DNA from: Methanobacteriota archaeon | GTDB taxonomy: Archaea > Thermoplasmatota > Poseidoniia > Poseidoniales > Poseidoniaceae | Assembly: GCA_018659375.1 (NCBI GenBank) | Contig: JABJMO010000009.1 | Span: 1 to 36,319, forward strand | DNA length: 36,319 nt | Direction of reading: 5' to 3' | Shown: in pieces, positions 18,822-28,891 of the stretch | How positions within the stretch are numbered: the stretch's first letter is position 1 | How the letters are laid out: each line of letters opens with the position of its first letter | Translations under genes and position numbers: made by a program | Notes under the pieces: model-generated | Seen by the model: only the letters and a program-made list of their open reading frames with translations | Database searches by the model: none | Told to the model about the DNA's origin: nothing

Positions 18822-21800
18822 TCATTGCCTATTGGTCATTTCTAAATATTGTTGCCCATAATATTTCCATTGTTCCATAGTCCAACCTTGGGGTAAGCCA
18901 TTCTCCGGCAGAGGGGGTGATGCACCCTCTTTTGTAACTGATGATGTAGTTTGGTCAATAATTTGGTTTGAAATTGGTGGTCCTGAAATTGGTGGTCCAT
19001 TTACGGGTTTTGATTCTGAGGTTTCCAGTCTATCATTAGTAACTCTTCTAATTCCGTACATTAATACTACAATTAGTACCAATAGTAAGAGGCTCATTCC
19101 ACCGATCATCGTGACTGATAGGGAGGTCGAATCAGATGTTTTGTCTTGAAATGTGTAAGAAATTGATGTTTGACTAATCACCTTACCACTTGAATCACTG
19201 ACTGAGATAGTGAGTTTTCCTTCAAGAATCATCCCGTTATTTAATACCTCACAATATGTGGAAGGGGTTCTTATTATTGAGGCAATAAAGGGCGATTCAA
19301 TAGTTACTTCGCTATTATTGACTAAGCTTGATTGACACAGTAAATTCCAATCAGGGGGTGTGTTAAATCCAATAGTTAAAATCTCATTTGTGGTAGATTC
19401 AATAGTATTGTTTATCCATAATTTACCATAATCATCAATCGATGAAATAGAAGAGTGGCCATATATAGTCGTGAACTTCCTAACATGGTTTACCACCAAA
19501 TCTACATTCTGTGATTTAGTAATAAATCCATCATCATGGTACTGAATCTCAAATAATATAGAAATGGTCGCATCCATCGGGACATCATTAGGCAATACGA
19601 TATCGATTCCTAATTTCCTAGAAGAGTTTTTTTCTAGAGTAATGGTATGAAAAATATCAAAATCGAAGGTGATTCCTATTGTTCCTATAGTGAAATATGA
19701 TTCTATTGGTTCAAAGTAATCTTGCGATGTAATTTGAGCCCGTACTTTTACCTCACGCTCATCAATATTGCCCAGATTGAAGATGTATGACTCTAATTTA
19801 GTGCTGTTTCCCACGCCGGTGTAGATTGGTGACTCTTGGGTGGATAATATGATATTCCTTACGGTTCCGGTGAATATCTCTTTGGTTATAACGTTGTTAA
19901 GGGGATTAATATCTTCACTGTTGGCGGTTATCGCAATAGACACAGATATGGTAAATTCTGTATTAGGTTCGACGCCAGCGGGCACATCTATCTTCAATTG
20001 GATATTCTTTAGATAATCTAACTCAGATCGTTCTGATAATTGAATTTCGTTCAATCGTTGTCCTAATTCATCTTCTAGCCACCAATTCCAAGAAATTGGT
20101 ATATTGTCGACAGATATGCTAGATGAGACTGGACCGTTACCCAAATTTTCTATTTCTAAACTAAAATTATTTATTATTCCAGGAATTATAGAAGCTGGCG
20201 AATCAATGAGTAGTACACTTACATCGTTTACTTGATTAATTTGCAAATTATCGTGTGTTTCGGATTGAAAATTTTGCCCACTTCGAATGGATATTATTTC
20301 AGCCACTACACTAGGGCAGTTATCACCATGTTGAGCAGATTCAGGAGACTCTAACGTGACAATAAAAGTACCAGTAGAATTTGAATTTAAGTATATCACT
20401 TCTGGTACTATATTTACCACATTCCAATCACTAAATCCTAATGTGTCTATACTGGTAGAAAAAATATCTTGCACAGATGCATTATTTATAATCTCAAAGC
20501 CTATGGTGACTAATTCTCCAGGATTTACCGACCATTTTGTATCTATATATGGTTCTTGTAAATACACCGATGCATCACTCACCATGCTTGCTGTTGCAGT
20601 TACATCTAAAGTGTCGGTCCTTGATGAATCATTTTGAGACTGAGCACGGATTTGAAAAATCCCAATCGAATCCGGAACCGCGTATTGAGCCACGGTATAT
20701 GTCAATAGAATTTCTGTTAGAATCCCGGGTTGCACATATATTGAGGTCGGTTGATTCCATGCGAATGCAACACTCCATCCTATCGGGAGATTTTGGTAAC
20801 TTAATGATAGGTCAAAAACATCACTAGCTCCACCTATATTCATCACATAGGCACTGTAAGTACAGGTATTTCCAGGTGAACATCGAGGGGATGTGGAACT
20901 TTCAGAAAACTCAGGGATTCGATCTGGCTCTACTTCTAACTGTACATTTATGGTATCACTTACCTGTCCATAGGTGACGCTAGAAAGTGTAACACCAATC
21001 GGGAATAAGCCAGCACTTTCACTTGATTTCGGTTGATAATTTAATTCGATGATTTTAGTTTCGCCTTTCTCCACTAATACTCCATTATCTTCACTGATAC
21101 TAACTCCGGATTGATGTGAGAAATAATATTGCCATTCAGCAGGCAAATTTTGCATTGAAGGGGTAAAAATTTCAGAAATATTGCCGCTATTTGTTAATTC
21201 TAAAACTGCTTTGCCCCATGAGCCTGGAACCGTCTTTGTAACGGACAATCCTGAAACCGATATATCGAATTCAGATTGTTTTGCTTCTTGGTCGTAAACT
21301 ATTACTATATCATCCATCCAAAAACCGATATCATTGTTCACTGAATCACTTGTAAAAGAGAACTTATATTGTGAATTAGTGTGAAACAATTGCGAACTTG
21401 TCGGTACTAAAGGGGAAAAAGCGCCTGCATGGTTTAAGGAAAATGTATTCCAATTTGCGCTATCTGTGAAGGTATTATCTGTGGTGCCAGTCATACTGAT
21501 TAACTCAATCCAAGCATTATTTTGGCTTTTGCCGTATAGTCTGATATAATCCCCACTCGCTAGACTACCGGTGTGAAAGAAAGTGATGCCATTGGTCCTT
21601 GTTGGGTTTGAAATAGCATCCGACATATCTAGAATGGGTGTAATTAAATCACTGTTTGCATTAGCGGAGTAGGTTGAAAATTGACCATTTCCATAATGGC
21701 AAGCAGATGCTTCGGATAGAAATGTGTCGGTATTTTCTGCCCAGCCAGCACCAACTGTCCAAGAGAATAAATCATTGCAATTGTAATATTTACTGGCAAC

Positions 21801-22331
21801 AGTAAATGTGCTTGTATAGGCATCATTTGACGGATTATCATCCAATAAACTGGAGAAAGGTGAGACAATTAATGTGTGATTGCCTGAATATGTTGGAATA
21901 AATTTGACTGTAGAGGTAATATCTGACTGCGCTCTAACCGTGCCAATCGTGTTGGTAATATTATGAAGATTAAAATCGATATATTCGTTGTGAATAACTA
22001 GAACATTGACTCCTACATTGGCTGCATCGTTAGAGCCACTATTGGATAAAAAAAATGTTAACTCAATTTCGACATCCTTAACCGCATCAATAGCAAACAA
22101 ATACTCAGGCTTAGTAAAACCGGCAATTGGATAGTTTGAAGAGAATTTTTGATACTTTTGTTCATCATTATTGTTAGGATAAGAAAAATCTACGTCGGTA
22201 ACAGATAGGTCTACTCCCGTGGCCTTTGAGTTAACTTGGTATGAATCATTTTCTAGGAGAGTAATTTGGTTAATTGGTATGGCGTGCGCTGAAACTAAAA
22301 TCACTAACATTAATGCAGTGTAGTTTTTCAT
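18822..22331 (-). CDS. Giant secreted surface protein with repeated beta-sandwich (CARDB/NEW-like) domains
   Basis: The 1169-residue product has a signal peptide (MKNYTALMLVILVSAHA) and a long chain of beta-sandwich domains. CARDB-like units (VTDVDFSY..., ELTFFLSNSGSNDAANVGV) come first. A MAM/carbohydrate-binding-like segment follows at about 185-350 (DLITPILDMSDA, IRLYGKSQNNAW, DDIVIVYD). Five or so NPCBM-associated NEW3-like repeats of the 'GSWGKAVLELTNSGNISE' type follow to about 1060. One membrane helix (about 1075-1094) leads to a Pro-rich cytoplasmic tail ending WTMEQWKYYGQQYLEM. It looks like a cell-surface adhesin or carbohydrate-binding protein; no catalytic motif is visible. It overlaps none of its neighbours and is followed at once by the 57-residue membrane protein. 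Confidence 0.72.
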   Translation of the reverse strand: MKNYTALMLVILVSAHAIPINQITLLENDSYQVNSKATGVDLSVTDVDFSYPNNNDEQKYQKFSSNYPIAGFTKPEYLFAIDAVKDVEIELTFFLSNSGSNDAANVGVNVLVIHNEYIDFNLHNITNTIGTVRAQSDITSTVKFIPTYSGNHTLIVSPFSSLLDDNPSNDAYTSTFTVASKYYNCNDLFSWTVGAGWAENTDTFLSEASACHYGNGQFSTYSANANSDLITPILDMSDAISNPTRTNGITFFHTGSLASGDYIRLYGKSQNNAWIELISMTGTTDNTFTDSANWNTFSLNHAGAFSPLVPTSSQLFHTNSQYKFSFTSDSVNNDIGFWMDDIVIVYDQEAKQSEFDISVSGLSVTKTVPGSWGKAVLELTNSGNISEIFTPSMQNLPAEWQYYFSHQSGVSISEDNGVLVEKGETKIIELNYQPKSSESAGLFPIGVTLSSVTYGQVSDTINVQLEVEPDRIPEFSESSTSPRCSPGNTCTYSAYVMNIGGASDVFDLSLSYQNLPIGWSVAFAWNQPTSIYVQPGILTEILLTYTVAQYAVPDSIGIFQIRAQSQNDSSRTDTLDVTATASMVSDASVYLQEPYIDTKWSVNPGELVTIGFEIINNASVQDIFSTSIDTLGFSDWNVVNIVPEVIYLNSNSTGTFIVTLESPESAQHGDNCPSVVAEIISIRSGQNFQSETHDNLQINQVNDVSVLLIDSPASIIPGIINNFSLEIENLGNGPVSSSISVDNIPISWNWWLEDELGQRLNEIQLSERSELDYLKNIQLKIDVPAGVEPNTEFTISVSIAITANSEDINPLNNVITKEIFTGTVRNIILSTQESPIYTGVGNSTKLESYIFNLGNIDEREVKVRAQITSQDYFEPIESYFTIGTIGITFDFDIFHTITLEKNSSRKLGIDIVLPNDVPMDATISILFEIQYHDDGFITKSQNVDLVVNHVRKFTTIYGHSSISSIDDYGKLWINNTIESTTNEILTIGFNTPPDWNLLCQSSLVNNSEVTIESPFIASIIRTPSTYCEVLNNGMILEGKLTISVSDSSGKVISQTSISYTFQDKTSDSTSLSVTMIGGMSLLLLVLIVVLMYGIRRVTNDRLETSESKPVNGPPISGPPISNQIIDQTTSSVTKEGASPPLPENGLPQGWTMEQWKYYGQQYLEMTNRQ

Positions 22332-25900: not shown

Positions 25901-26350
25901 TTATTTAATCCACGATGCTGTAGACTTTGGAGTTTCTCTTACGTGCATAGCGACTAATCTTAATTTGTTTCCATAGACTGATTGAATATGCGGCTCTACT
26001 TGTTCAAAAGCCCATTTTGCCAAATTCTCCGCTGTTGGAATAAAATCAACAATGACTGTTCGGTGGTCATCATTCATCATTTTCAGCGCAGCTATGGCTT
26101 GCTTATCGCCCTCAAATACGACAAATGCATGATCAACAACATCGTGTATTTTCTCAGTAAGAATGTGGCTAACATCTGAGAAATCCATCAACATACCTTC
26201 ATCCGAGACCCCTTCTACCGAAACTACATTGCCCTCGATCTCAGCTTCAAATCTGTATCGATGTCCGTGTAGGTGTCGGCACTTACTCTTGTGATTAGGC
26301 ACCCTATGTCCTGTGTCAGTCTCTACATATCTTCTTATTCTAGTAACCAT
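25901..26350 (-). CDS. queD: 6-carboxy-5,6,7,8-tetrahydropterin synthase (QueD)
   Basis: Second step of preQ0 synthesis, converting 7,8-dihydroneopterin triphosphate to 6-carboxytetrahydropterin. The product (149 residues) has the zinc histidines and catalytic Cys-His segment VPNHKSKCRHLHGHRY, then GMLMDFSDV, VVDHAFVV, PTAENLAKWAF and VRETPKSTASW with the substrate-binding Glu. ATG 26350 is used; the in-frame TTG at 26374 lies inside the upstream gene. It follows the queC-msrB fusion by 7 nt and is the last gene of the operon. Confidence 0.94.
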   Translation of the reverse strand: MVTRIRRYVETDTGHRVPNHKSKCRHLHGHRYRFEAEIEGNVVSVEGVSDEGMLMDFSDVSHILTEKIHDVVDHAFVVFEGDKQAIAALKMMNDDHRTVIVDFIPTAENLAKWAFEQVEPHIQSVYGNKLRLVAMHVRETPKSTASWIK

Positions 26351-26357
26351 ATTATCA

Positions 26358-27500
26358 CTATTCCCTAAATTCAATTGAGGCTGAATTTATGCAATACCTT
26401 TCGCCTCCGTGTTCTCTTGGCCCATCATTAAACACATGACCTAGATGGGCATCACACTTTGAACACCTAACTTCTATTCGATTCATACCGTAGGCATAAT
26501 CTTCAATACGCGAAATCTTTGCTGAGTTATGTTCTGTATGGAATGCAGGCCATCCACATCCGGAATTGTATTTTCCTGTCGATTCAAATAATGGATGGTT
26601 GCAACATATGCAATAATATGTTCCGCTTTCAAAGTGCTTGTCATATATTCCAGTAAAAGCTCTTTCTGTAGCAGAATTTCTCGTTACTTGATATTGTAAA
26701 TCTGTTAATTTTTCTCGATATATTTTATCACGATATTCTGCTTCGATTTTCAATGCATGTGCTAGGGTATCGGCCCATGTATCTTGATATTCAACTGGAT
26801 CTTCTCGCCCAATAGCATGAAAAGCCAGTATACGTTCAATATCTGAGCCTGTTTTACCCGAACTTCGCCCCATTTCATCTGGTTCATATGACGTATTAGT
26901 ATTGGCAAATATTGTATCAAAATCTAAAGATAGTTGTTCACAAGAAATCAGGGAATCCTGGAGTATGGAAATTTTATCTCCATCGATATATGGCAAATCA
27001 AGCGATATTTTTTCACTATCCCAATTACCAATTGCAAATGCATGATTGAGAACTTGATAAAACTCAGGACGGCAATCAGGATATATTGCATGGTCTCCTG
27101 AGTGGACGCCGAGTGAAATACTGACTTCGCTAGAATATTCAATACTTTTACTAAGCGCGTAGCCGTATATAATCGAAGCAAATATAGCATTACGGTTGGG
27201 GACTACAGTAGATTTCATTTGCTCTTGTTCGTAATGGCCCTCCGGTATTTTTTCACCAGATGTCAGTGAACCGGTAAACATAGACATTATGCTTGATAAA
27301 TCAACTGTTTTATGTTCGACAATGAAGCCACATGTCTGTAAATATTCTATGTTTTTTTGTGCTCTATCCAATTCAATGAGATGCTTTTGACCGTAATTGA
27401 ATCCTATAGTGTAGACTTTGTTGGATTCTCTTAGCAATCTAAGCAGCAAGGAGGTTGAATCCATTCCACCACTAAATGCCATCACTGCTATTTTTGTCAA
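26358..27500 (-). CDS. QueC (7-cyano-7-deazaguanine synthase-like) fused to peptide-methionine-(R)-sulfoxide reductase MsrB
   Basis: A single 380-residue frame. Residues 1-240 are QueC-like: MTKIAVMAFSGGMDS (ATP-pyrophosphatase loop), GFNYGQKH, VVPNRN (99-104) and GVHSGDHAIYPDCR. The family's four zinc cysteines are all replaced: CY is SY (about 204) and CGxCxxC is SGKTGSD (about 214-220). Residues about 261-380 are a complete MsrB: REKLTDLQYQVTRNSATE, zinc pairs CICC (297-300) and CSKC (346-349), SGCGWPAF and the catalytic Cys370 in RYCINSASIEF. TTG 27500 overlaps the queE stop as TTGA and gives the usual QueC N-terminus; ATG 27515 is an alternative. Expected role: preQ0 formation from CDG, plus methionine sulfoxide repair. 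Whether the QueC half is active without its zinc site is open. Confidence 0.9.
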   Translation of the reverse strand: MTKIAVMAFSGGMDSTSLLLRLLRESNKVYTIGFNYGQKHLIELDRAQKNIEYLQTCGFIVEHKTVDLSSIMSMFTGSLTSGEKIPEGHYEQEQMKSTVVPNRNAIFASIIYGYALSKSIEYSSEVSISLGVHSGDHAIYPDCRPEFYQVLNHAFAIGNWDSEKISLDLPYIDGDKISILQDSLISCEQLSLDFDTIFANTNTSYEPDEMGRSSGKTGSDIERILAFHAIGREDPVEYQDTWADTLAHALKIEAEYRDKIYREKLTDLQYQVTRNSATERAFTGIYDKHFESGTYYCICCNHPLFESTGKYNSGCGWPAFHTEHNSAKISRIEDYAYGMNRIEVRCSKCDAHLGHVFNDGPREHGGERYCINSASIEFRE

Positions 27501-28150
27501 TCTATCCCCATCCATTTGTGTGTTTGTAACGACAGCCGCCAAGAACTATTCTCTTTTACTACTGATTCTGTTAACGCAAAATTTTGACCATTCCACTCTA
27601 CTGACTTATCATCAAAATAACATGGCTGGAGATATAGATGGGTAAAGCCCAAGATTAACTCGTCGTACATCGCTAGGTCCTGACCCAAGTATACACATTT
27701 TAATTCATCACCTTGACGTTGTTTGATTTTGACTTTTGAGTATATCTGATCTTTTGGAGACACACATATCCAATCAATCAACCCATCAGGTATCAATATT
27801 GTACCATTAGTCTCTATTGAGATATGGTAGCCTCTGTTCTTTAATAGTCGTTGTATAGGCCATAGATCATTGATCATTGGTTCTCCTCCAGTAAAGATGA
27901 TATTTTTACAATCAAACTTGAATATCTCAGATAATATATCCATACAGTTCATTTCTTCAAATGTTAAAAAATCAGTATCACACCACTCGCAGCGTAAGTT
28001 ACAGTTTCCAAACCGAATGAATACATGAGGAATTCCGGCTCTAGCACCTTCACCTTGAACGGAATGAAATATTTCCACTATGTTGTATACTTGTGTCAAA
28101 TCACCTGGATCATCTAATGTTTTACCCCCTGCTATGCCACAATCTAACAT
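27497..28150 (-). CDS. queE: 7-carboxy-7-deazaguanine synthase, radical SAM (QueE)
   Basis: Third step of preQ0 synthesis: ring contraction of 6-carboxytetrahydropterin to 7-carboxy-7-deazaguanine. The product has 217 residues. The opening strand EIFHSVQGEGARAGIPHVFIR leads to the cluster motif CNLRCEWCDT (CxxxCxxC), FTGGEPMI binds SAM, SIETNG and VSPK bind substrate, and LQTHKWMGI ends the protein as in the family. ATG 28150 follows GGGGAATAAA. It starts 10 nt after folE and overlaps the queC-msrB start by 4 nt. Confidence 0.95.
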   Translation of the reverse strand: MLDCGIAGGKTLDDPGDLTQVYNIVEIFHSVQGEGARAGIPHVFIRFGNCNLRCEWCDTDFLTFEEMNCMDILSEIFKFDCKNIIFTGGEPMINDLWPIQRLLKNRGYHISIETNGTILIPDGLIDWICVSPKDQIYSKVKIKQRQGDELKCVYLGQDLAMYDELILGFTHLYLQPCYFDDKSVEWNGQNFALTESVVKENSSWRLSLQTHKWMGID

Positions 28151-28160
28151 TTTATTCCCC

Positions 28161-28724
28161 TCAATTTTTGATCAGTTGAAATAACTCTTGCCTTGCCTCT
28201 GCATTATCAAAAAATACCCCTTTCATTGCCGATGTAGACATAATAGCATTTTGTTGCTTTACACCGCGACACCTCATACAACCATGAGCTGCTTCAATAA
28301 TTACCGCACATCCAAGAGGCTTTAGATAGGCTTCTAAATCATCTGCGATACTTTTGGTAATACGCTCTTGATTTTGTAACCTACGAGCGTGTAATTCTAC
28401 TATTCTTGATAGTTTAGAGATCCCAACAATGCGATTCACCGGTATGTAAGCTACATGTGCTTTTCCGTTGAAGGGTTGTAAATGATGCTCACAAGTCGAA
28501 TGAAATTCAATGTCCTTTAGCAAAACAATTCCATCATATCCCTCACCATTGAAAGTTGAGCTAAGAATTTCCTCCGGACTCATTTGATAACCAGCGAATA
28601 TTTCAGACCATGAATCTATAACTCTAGTGGGAGTATTAAACAATCCTTCCCGCTCTACATCATCCTCGAGGTAACCTAACAATGTCTTAACAGCCAATAT
28701 TGCTTCGTCTCTAGTTGTTCTCAT
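28161..28724 (-). CDS. folE: GTP cyclohydrolase I, type IA (FolE)
   Basis: Converts GTP to dihydroneopterin triphosphate, the first step towards preQ0 and pterins. The 187 residues contain the zinc ligands in STCEHHLQPF and in GCMRCRG, plus PTRVIDSW, GISKLSRIVELHARRLQNQE and the C-terminal MKGVF, which mark the canonical type I enzyme. Many archaea use MptA/FolE2 instead. ATG 28724 follows GGGAGAGTGTGACT; GTG 28730 is an alternative. It begins 2 nt after the RHH regulator stop, so the two are surely co-transcribed. With QueE, QueC and QueD this completes a GTP-to-preQ0 operon. Confidence 0.95.
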   Translation of the reverse strand: MRTTRDEAILAVKTLLGYLEDDVEREGLFNTPTRVIDSWSEIFAGYQMSPEEILSSTFNGEGYDGIVLLKDIEFHSTCEHHLQPFNGKAHVAYIPVNRIVGISKLSRIVELHARRLQNQERITKSIADDLEAYLKPLGCAVIIEAAHGCMRCRGVKQQNAIMSTSAMKGVFFDNAEARQELFQLIKN

Positions 28725-28726
28725 AG

Positions 28727-28891
28727 TCACACTCTCCCATTTCGCAAATCAATTTCATCCAACTGGTCGAGTAACTTTCGACAAGCAGTTCTAACAGCGT
28801 CGGCCACACTGATGAATTTCTTCTCATCTCCAACATGGCGTTTCAAGTCATTGAGAACTTCAGCTGGCATGTCAAGTGAGATTTTAGGCAT
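28727..28891 (-). CDS. Ribbon-helix-helix (CopG/Arc-type) transcription regulator, 54 residues
   Basis: Read directly from the sequence upstream of folE. The ATG at 28891 opens 54 codons ending in TGA at 28727. The product has the RHH layout: ribbon strand MPKISLDMP, helix A AEVLNDLKRHV, turn GDEKKF and helix B SVADAVRTACRKLLDQL, then a short tail. Alternating strand residues (Lys3, Ser5) would contact DNA. The ATG is about 23 nt from a TATA box centre, so the transcript is probably leaderless. Its stop is 2 nt from the folE ATG. A cluster of TATTAC half-sites lies just upstream of the promoter, so autoregulation of the preQ0 operon is likely. The effector, if any, is unknown. Confidence 0.78.
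   Translation of the reverse strand: MPKISLDMPAEVLNDLKRHVGDEKKFISVADAVRTACRKLLDQLDEIDLRNGRV

Follow-up and report, generated by a model that had tools for sequence, protein, structure and literature searches.

A conserved QueC-MsrB fusion in the preQ0 operon of Poseidoniales, with a QueC domain that lacks the zinc-site cysteines

A single open reading frame that joins a QueC domain, devoid of its zinc cysteines, to a methionine-R-sulfoxide reductase (MsrB) raises the question of what such a protein makes, and of whether the missing zinc site and the added reductase have anything to do with one another. We analysed this frame in a 36,319-nucleotide stretch of DNA (hereafter the window) from an archaeon of the Ca. 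Poseidoniales, which we take to be the ocean archaea of Marine Group II. The minus-strand frame is open throughout positions 26358-27542 (394 codons). Translation probably begins with the TTG at 27500, which overlaps the stop codon of queE as TTGA; the resulting product of 380 aa agrees with the extent given in the initial annotation. Uninterrupted, the frame matched both Pfam QueC (PF06508; 1.3e-39, 136.4 bits against a cut-off of 22) and Pfam SelR/MsrB (5.6e-48, 162.2 bits against a cut-off of 24.9), the latter across profile positions 1-115 of 116, which confirms that one frame holds QueC and a complete MsrB domain. The score on the MsrB model TIGR00357 was 172.1 bits (cut-off 113.05), and that on the NCBIfam QueC equivalog was 130 bits, below its cut-off of 150.3.

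The QueC motifs SGGMDS, YGQKH, VVPNRN and YPDCR were all intact, as first described, and alignments against canonical QueC bore out the substitution of all four zinc cysteines (S204, S214, T217 and D220, within TSY and SGKTGSD). MsrB does bring its own two CxxC pairs, and its catalytic (Cys370) and resolving (Cys315) cysteines are present (Table 1). An AlphaFold2 model of the fusion had a pLDDT of 88.3 and a pTM of 0.80, with pLDDT of 81-93 across the stretch of the erased zinc site (residues 201-230). No glutamine amidotransferase domain of the Gat-QueC type was found by Pfam in the fusion frame.

Table 1. Features of the queC-msrB gene and its operon neighbours (positions in the window)
Feature	Position	Strand	Basis
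folE, GTP cyclohydrolase I, upstream of queE	28161..28730	-	
queE, radical SAM, upstream; best NCBIfam TIGR04508, below cut-off	27497..28150	-	
queC-msrB fusion gene, 380 aa, TTG start (likely) overlapping queE stop (TTGA)	26358..27500	-	
QueC domain (PF06508), without zinc cysteines	26814..27488	-	
SGGMDS ATP-pyrophosphatase loop	27456..27473	-	sequence; computed from 27500 start
YGQKH motif, Y = E. coli Y35	27381..27395	-	role from PMC13329287 (excerpts)
VVPNRN motif, R = E. coli R99	27189..27206	-	role from PMC13329287 (excerpts)
YPDC motif, Y = E. coli Y131	27072..27083	-	role from PMC13329287 (excerpts)
Erased zinc site: S204-Y205...S214, T217, D220 replacing C-Y...CxxCxxC; Y205 (= E. coli Y189) kept	26841..26891	-	
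Helical linker, predicted helices 242-264 and 267-274	26679..26777	-	AlphaFold2 model
MsrB (SelR, PF01641) domain	26364..26708	-	
MsrB CxxC number 1 (C297, C300), expected zinc ligands	26601..26612	-	
MsrB resolving Cys315 (SGCGWP)	26556..26558	-	
MsrB CxxC number 2 (C346, C349), expected zinc ligands	26454..26465	-	
MsrB catalytic Cys370 (RYCINS)	26391..26393	-	
queD, PTPS family, downstream; TIGR03367 below cut-off	25901..26374	-	

Two circumstances had been named at the outset as fatal to this description, an assembly error and a second, canonical queC elsewhere in the genome, and neither was found. An assembly error is unlikely because the same fusion recurs in 66 of 145 Poseidoniales genomes, in one of them (G002) on a single contig of 2,064,136 bases. 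A PF06508 search of the window's own genome (~91% complete) found no second QueC; the only other match, at 19 bits, lies in a frame that we presume, from recognition of its sequence rather than from a profile search, to be a GMP synthase subunit. Elsewhere in the window, a frame of 1169 aa (18822-22331, minus strand) gave a best Pfam score of 20.5 bits against a cut-off of 27 and no NCBIfam match.

To place the fusion in its order, 145 Poseidoniales genomes (metagenome-assembled, 75-97% complete) were searched with SelR and PF06508, matches of at least 82 bits to the latter, a cut chosen in the analysis, being counted as QueC-grade. SelR was positive in 108 genomes and PF06508 in 140, at QueC grade in 121; both genes were present in 107, QueC only in 14, MsrB only in one and neither in 23. 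The two genes form one frame in 66 of the 145, and a separate msrB lies directly 3' of queC on the same strand in a further 40 (gaps between matches of 115-153 bases), which makes 106 linked pairs, fused or adjacent, among the 107 genomes with both. The one unlinked MsrB, in G144, belongs to a different type: it shares 46% identity with that of the window and lacks the resolving Cys; a free-standing MsrB in G168, a genome outside the 145, likewise lacks this residue. A second SelR match occurred in G113 alone, in a fragment of 93 aa at the edge of a contig.

The operon at the window locus runs folE-queE-queC=msrB-queD. The complete order FolE-QueE-QueC-MsrB-QueD was found at 61 of the 121 QueC loci (33 fused, 28 separate), and MsrB stands between QueC and QueD at 93; QueD directly follows QueC at 11, and the other 17 lie on stretches short of one operon gene or another. 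An overlap between the queC stop and an in-frame start codon of msrB was seen in 36 of the 40 separate pairs, the offset being -4 (ATGA-type) in 20. The operon also harbours another fusion, a 507-aa frame joining QueE to QueC in one genome (G121:C117, locus L160). A fused operon of archaeal type was likewise seen at a locus (L021) whose record is titled Phycisphaerae bacterium, in a genome with two SelR genes that is probably a mixed bin.

Fused and separate pairs both occur within genera g17 and g19, and the spacing from YPDC to the resolving Cys takes two values among the 66 fusions, 172 in 45 and 158 in 21. The best trees require 7-8 changes of fusion state for QueC, or 3 for MsrB (a tree that omitted G054 and G144); we claim no number of fusion events because strongly supported branches force only one. 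The QueC tree further placed three fused sequences of f2g19 (G036, G058 and G096) beside G039 and G130 of f1g1 with a support of 94, a grouping that suggests transfer of the operon within the order.

The initial annotation knew of no described QueC-MsrB enzyme, but the fusion had been in print since 2018 as 'AANH-MSRB', with its N-terminal domain put in another family (PMC6211008, in excerpt). The excerpted review lists archaeal MsrB fusions with MsrA, Trx, ThyX-like and 'AANH' domains, and describes the AANH-MSRB protein (UniProt A0A2D6JNB0), said to appear unique to archaea, as having a ThiI-like N-domain and a substrate 'X'. Its Cys162, CysR334 and CysA389 are spaced by 172 and 55 residues, which are also the distances between the YPDC Cys, the resolving Cys and the catalytic Cys in the window protein and in 45 of the 66 fusions; from this spacing we conclude that A0A2D6JNB0 most probably belongs to the same family. 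Profile and fold did not place the N-terminal domain of the fusion nearer to ThiI than to QueC. With an N-terminal domain that is QueC, the substrate of AANH-MSRB would be CDG.

In its fold, its SGGxDS, YGQxH, VPxRN and YPDC motifs, its Tyr189 equivalent and its preQ0 operon, the fusion resembles canonical QueC (PF06508 Cluster 1; 3BL5, 2PG3), from which it differs by the missing zinc cysteines, by extra residues that the alignment places before and within the site, and by the C-terminal MsrB. The MsrB part resembles SelR proteins that carry, besides two CxxC pairs, both a catalytic and a resolving Cys; it differs from them by its place behind QueC. According to excerpts of PMC13329287, the PF06508 clusters QueC, QatC and Cap9 keep the zinc motif, and LarE and GMP synthase are without it and without the QueC motifs too. 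QatC and Cap9 retain their zinc cysteines in defence operons (excerpts of PMC13329287, and of PMC13279940 for QatC); unlike these, the fusion is zinc-free and sits in a preQ0 operon, with folE, queE and queD as immediate neighbours and no qatABD or CD-NTase among them. A conjugating or defence enzyme was considered and rejected: the match to the PADLOC QueC model was weak and partial (40.8 bits, residues 5-79), and the neighbours are preQ0 genes. Neither the QueC identity of the fusion nor a zinc-free clade of canonical QueC was found in the literature searched, most subscription papers lying outside its scope.

The loss of the zinc cysteines is not tied to MsrB, because zinc-free QueC occurs unfused and with no MsrB nearby. 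All four cysteines are absent from 120 of the 121 Poseidoniales QueC, fused or not, the site of the remaining one (G095) being cut off by a contig end, and the fourth position is Asp in all 120 readable sequences. We also identified 13 planctomycete QueC loci that are 57-60% identical to the window (search patterns outside the zinc site); the seven aligned all lack the zinc cysteines, and none of the 13 had MsrB or another operon gene in the fetched flanks, MsrB being encoded elsewhere in nine of the ten planctomycete genomes searched. Among viruses, the zinc motif is absent at 79 of the 80 loci that were the best of at least 588 relatives, a set ranked by likeness to the zinc-free query and biased to it, one of the two search patterns having covered the zinc-free site and 79 of the 80 carrying the other pattern. 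Within these best 80 of at least 588, the flanks gave a BLAST match to folE, queE or queD at 55 loci and to MsrB at none. The single exception among the best 80, L234 (viral contig IMGVR_UViG_3300028920_000047, 3001-3789), carries Cys at all four zinc positions and scores 144.5 bits on the NCBIfam QueC equivalog, also under the 150.3 cut-off; it falls in the same long clade and is 54% identical to the window. Flavobacterium phage immuto has a zinc-free QueC too, and a nucleotide search of the operon stretch against phages returned only a 5% partial match. As a control, the 30 best-scoring canonical QueC loci were taken from a search of the same phylum (179 of 194 genomes positive): the full zinc motif was present in 30 of 30, and no MsrB was found in their 1.5-kb flanks. 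In family f3 of the same class, a zinc-free QueC (G298, locus L299) and a canonical QueC (G174, locus L300) were seen in different genera.

A quick maximum-likelihood tree of 154 QueC, which 22 of the 80 viral and seven of the 13 planctomycete loci entered, recovered Poseidoniales as one clade (SH-aLRT 95) nested within the zinc-free QueC of viruses and planctomycetes, the zinc-bearing L234 falling just outside (93); the root of this tree is weakened by long outgroup branches and by a program warning that L234 meets the outgroup. A filter on length and motifs removed three of the 121 Poseidoniales QueC (G095, G114 and G121), leaving 118 for the trees and the residue counts; G114 and G121 showed no cysteines when their zinc sites were read separately. 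On the simplest reading, direction included, the zinc site would have been lost once, zinc-free QueC would have spread mainly through viruses, and Poseidoniales would have acquired it a single time.

Known QueC enzymes use ATP and ammonia to turn CDG into preQ0, by way of ADG. Excerpts of PMC13329287 name four residues as essential for preQ0 synthesis in E. coli QueC, and the equivalents of Y35, Y131 and Y189 are present in 118 of 118 Poseidoniales QueC and that of R99 in 117 (one X). The window's own genome encodes the archaeosine transglycosylase TgtA (438.7 bits against an equivalog cut-off of 350). A long ArcS-like match was found in 12 of 13 genomes at 147-265 bits (233.9 in the window's own), all under the curated cut-off of 440, and as a fragment in the thirteenth; the ArcS model also matches weakly in 13 of 14 control genomes. 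QueF over its cut-off was found in none of the 13 genomes searched.

The reductase half likewise appears competent, both CxxC pairs, the resolving Cys and the catalytic Cys being kept in 66 of 66 fusions; the motifs missing from G054 are lost to a contig end. MsrA is encoded elsewhere in the window's own genome (C45). It is present in 92 of the 107 Poseidoniales genomes with QueC and MsrB and in one of the 12 that lack MsrB and whose queC locus is untruncated (three of 14 if G095 and G109, omitted for their contig ends, are included), a co-absence with a Fisher p of 8e-8 that ignores kinship and genome incompleteness. The 11 genomes with neither MsrA nor MsrB comprise seven of genus g14 together with G017, G121, G069 and G027, which amounts to few independent losses. 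Genus g14 as a whole is without MsrA or MsrB (8/8 genomes), and methionine-sulfoxide repair has apparently been lost in some Marine Group II lineages. That MsrB tends to share the fate of MsrA, and not of QueC, favours a role in general repair. The linkage to queC in 106 of 107 genomes nonetheless exceeds the need of a general repair enzyme and hints at coupling.

One early proposal was that the MsrB zinc ribbon compensates structurally for the lost QueC site. Zinc-free QueC and MsrB do share one protein here, but this reading fails and we hold it to be extremely improbable: the cysteines are also missing from unfused Poseidoniales QueC, including lineages without msrB, and from the planctomycete (7/7) and viral (79 of the best 80 of at least 588) sequences described above, where no fused or nearby MsrB was found at 13 of 13 and 80 of 80 loci. 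This evidence bears on fusion and neighbourhood rather than on MsrB acting in trans, nine of ten planctomycete genomes encoding one elsewhere. It was also proposed that QueC had become an amidotransferase-like or conjugating enzyme; the retained residues essential in E. coli, the preQ0 operon, the presence of TgtA and the failure to find another QueC lend this no support. More broadly, the reaction in the zinc-free clade might end at ADG or involve a different nucleophile; the product might be something other than preQ0, such as ADG alone or a protein or DNA conjugate. A zinc-free site combined with QueC motifs is undescribed in the excerpts of PMC13329287, and phage DNA bearing ADG is on record (PMC6884629, in excerpt); yet all four essential residues are kept, the genome encodes TgtA and no other QueC was found in it, and we regard a product other than preQ0 as improbable.

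The fusion itself could instead reflect redox coupling in cis, whereby MsrB would repair or sense oxidised methionines of its own QueC (Met13, Met95) or of QueE and QueD, and so keep archaeosine synthesis going under photo-oxidative stress. The 106 linked pairs among 107, the predicted helical linker and the invariance of Met13 (in the SGGMDS ATP loop) and Met95 (before VVPNRN) in 118 of 118 Poseidoniales QueC are consistent with this. However, the same methionines are equally fixed in planctomycete (7/7) and viral (23/23) QueC with no adjacent MsrB, and lineages without MsrB, 11 of 12 such genomes also lacking MsrA, keep QueC, so that a coupling of preQ0 synthesis to oxidative state, as initially suggested, is not required. 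Taken jointly, these forms of coupling seem unlikely. The more specific picture of a redox-protected or redox-gated preQ0 synthase, in which the MsrB arm would reduce sulfoxides of QueC's invariant active-site methionines and archaeosine would track oxidative state in archaea of the sunlit ocean, seems a little less likely again. A neutral joining, in which overlapping operon genes fused by frameshift with no meaning beyond co-expression, deserves more credence, as a tentative possibility somewhat short of even and one compatible with the explanation we prefer. The in-frame overlap in 36 of 40 separate pairs, the QueE-QueC frame of G121 and the coexistence of fused and separate pairs in genera g17 and g19 argue for it; the presence of the fusion in 66 of the 107 genomes with both genes and the regular YPDC-to-resolving-Cys spacing (172 or 158) argue against it, though common descent could also give this regularity.

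We consider it likely, from sequence comparison, that the protein makes preQ0 for archaeosine without zinc, and that the history of the operon has tethered this synthase to a methionine-R-sulfoxide reductase of general function. According to this explanation, the N-terminal half would be a QueC that needs no zinc to turn CDG into preQ0 for archaeosine in tRNA, and would belong to a zinc-free clade found also in viruses and planctomycetes. Poseidoniales would have acquired a gene of this clade as a replacement for the canonical archaeal queC. The C-terminal half would be a working MsrB, active in general methionine-R-sulfoxide repair as the partner of the separately encoded MsrA. In the proposed order of events, msrB came to lie in the preQ0 operon after queC, whose stop it overlaps, and ahead of queD; in some members of the order the overlapping pair then merged into a single frame.

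The fusion is real, conserved and partly known. The suggested connection of MsrB with the missing zinc site fails, and the more interesting finding is the zinc-free QueC clade. The analysis provides an identity and a candidate substrate (CDG) for the fusion that the 2018 review left with a substrate X, and a natural QueC clade in which the essential residues are kept and the zinc site is gone, though even QatC and Cap9 retain that site. With such a natural zinc-free clade and zinc-bearing sisters like L234, the role of zinc in QueC becomes directly testable. More generally, the near-strict linkage of the sole msrB to queC raises the question of why, in an archaeal order, methionine repair should be tied to the synthesis of a tRNA precursor.
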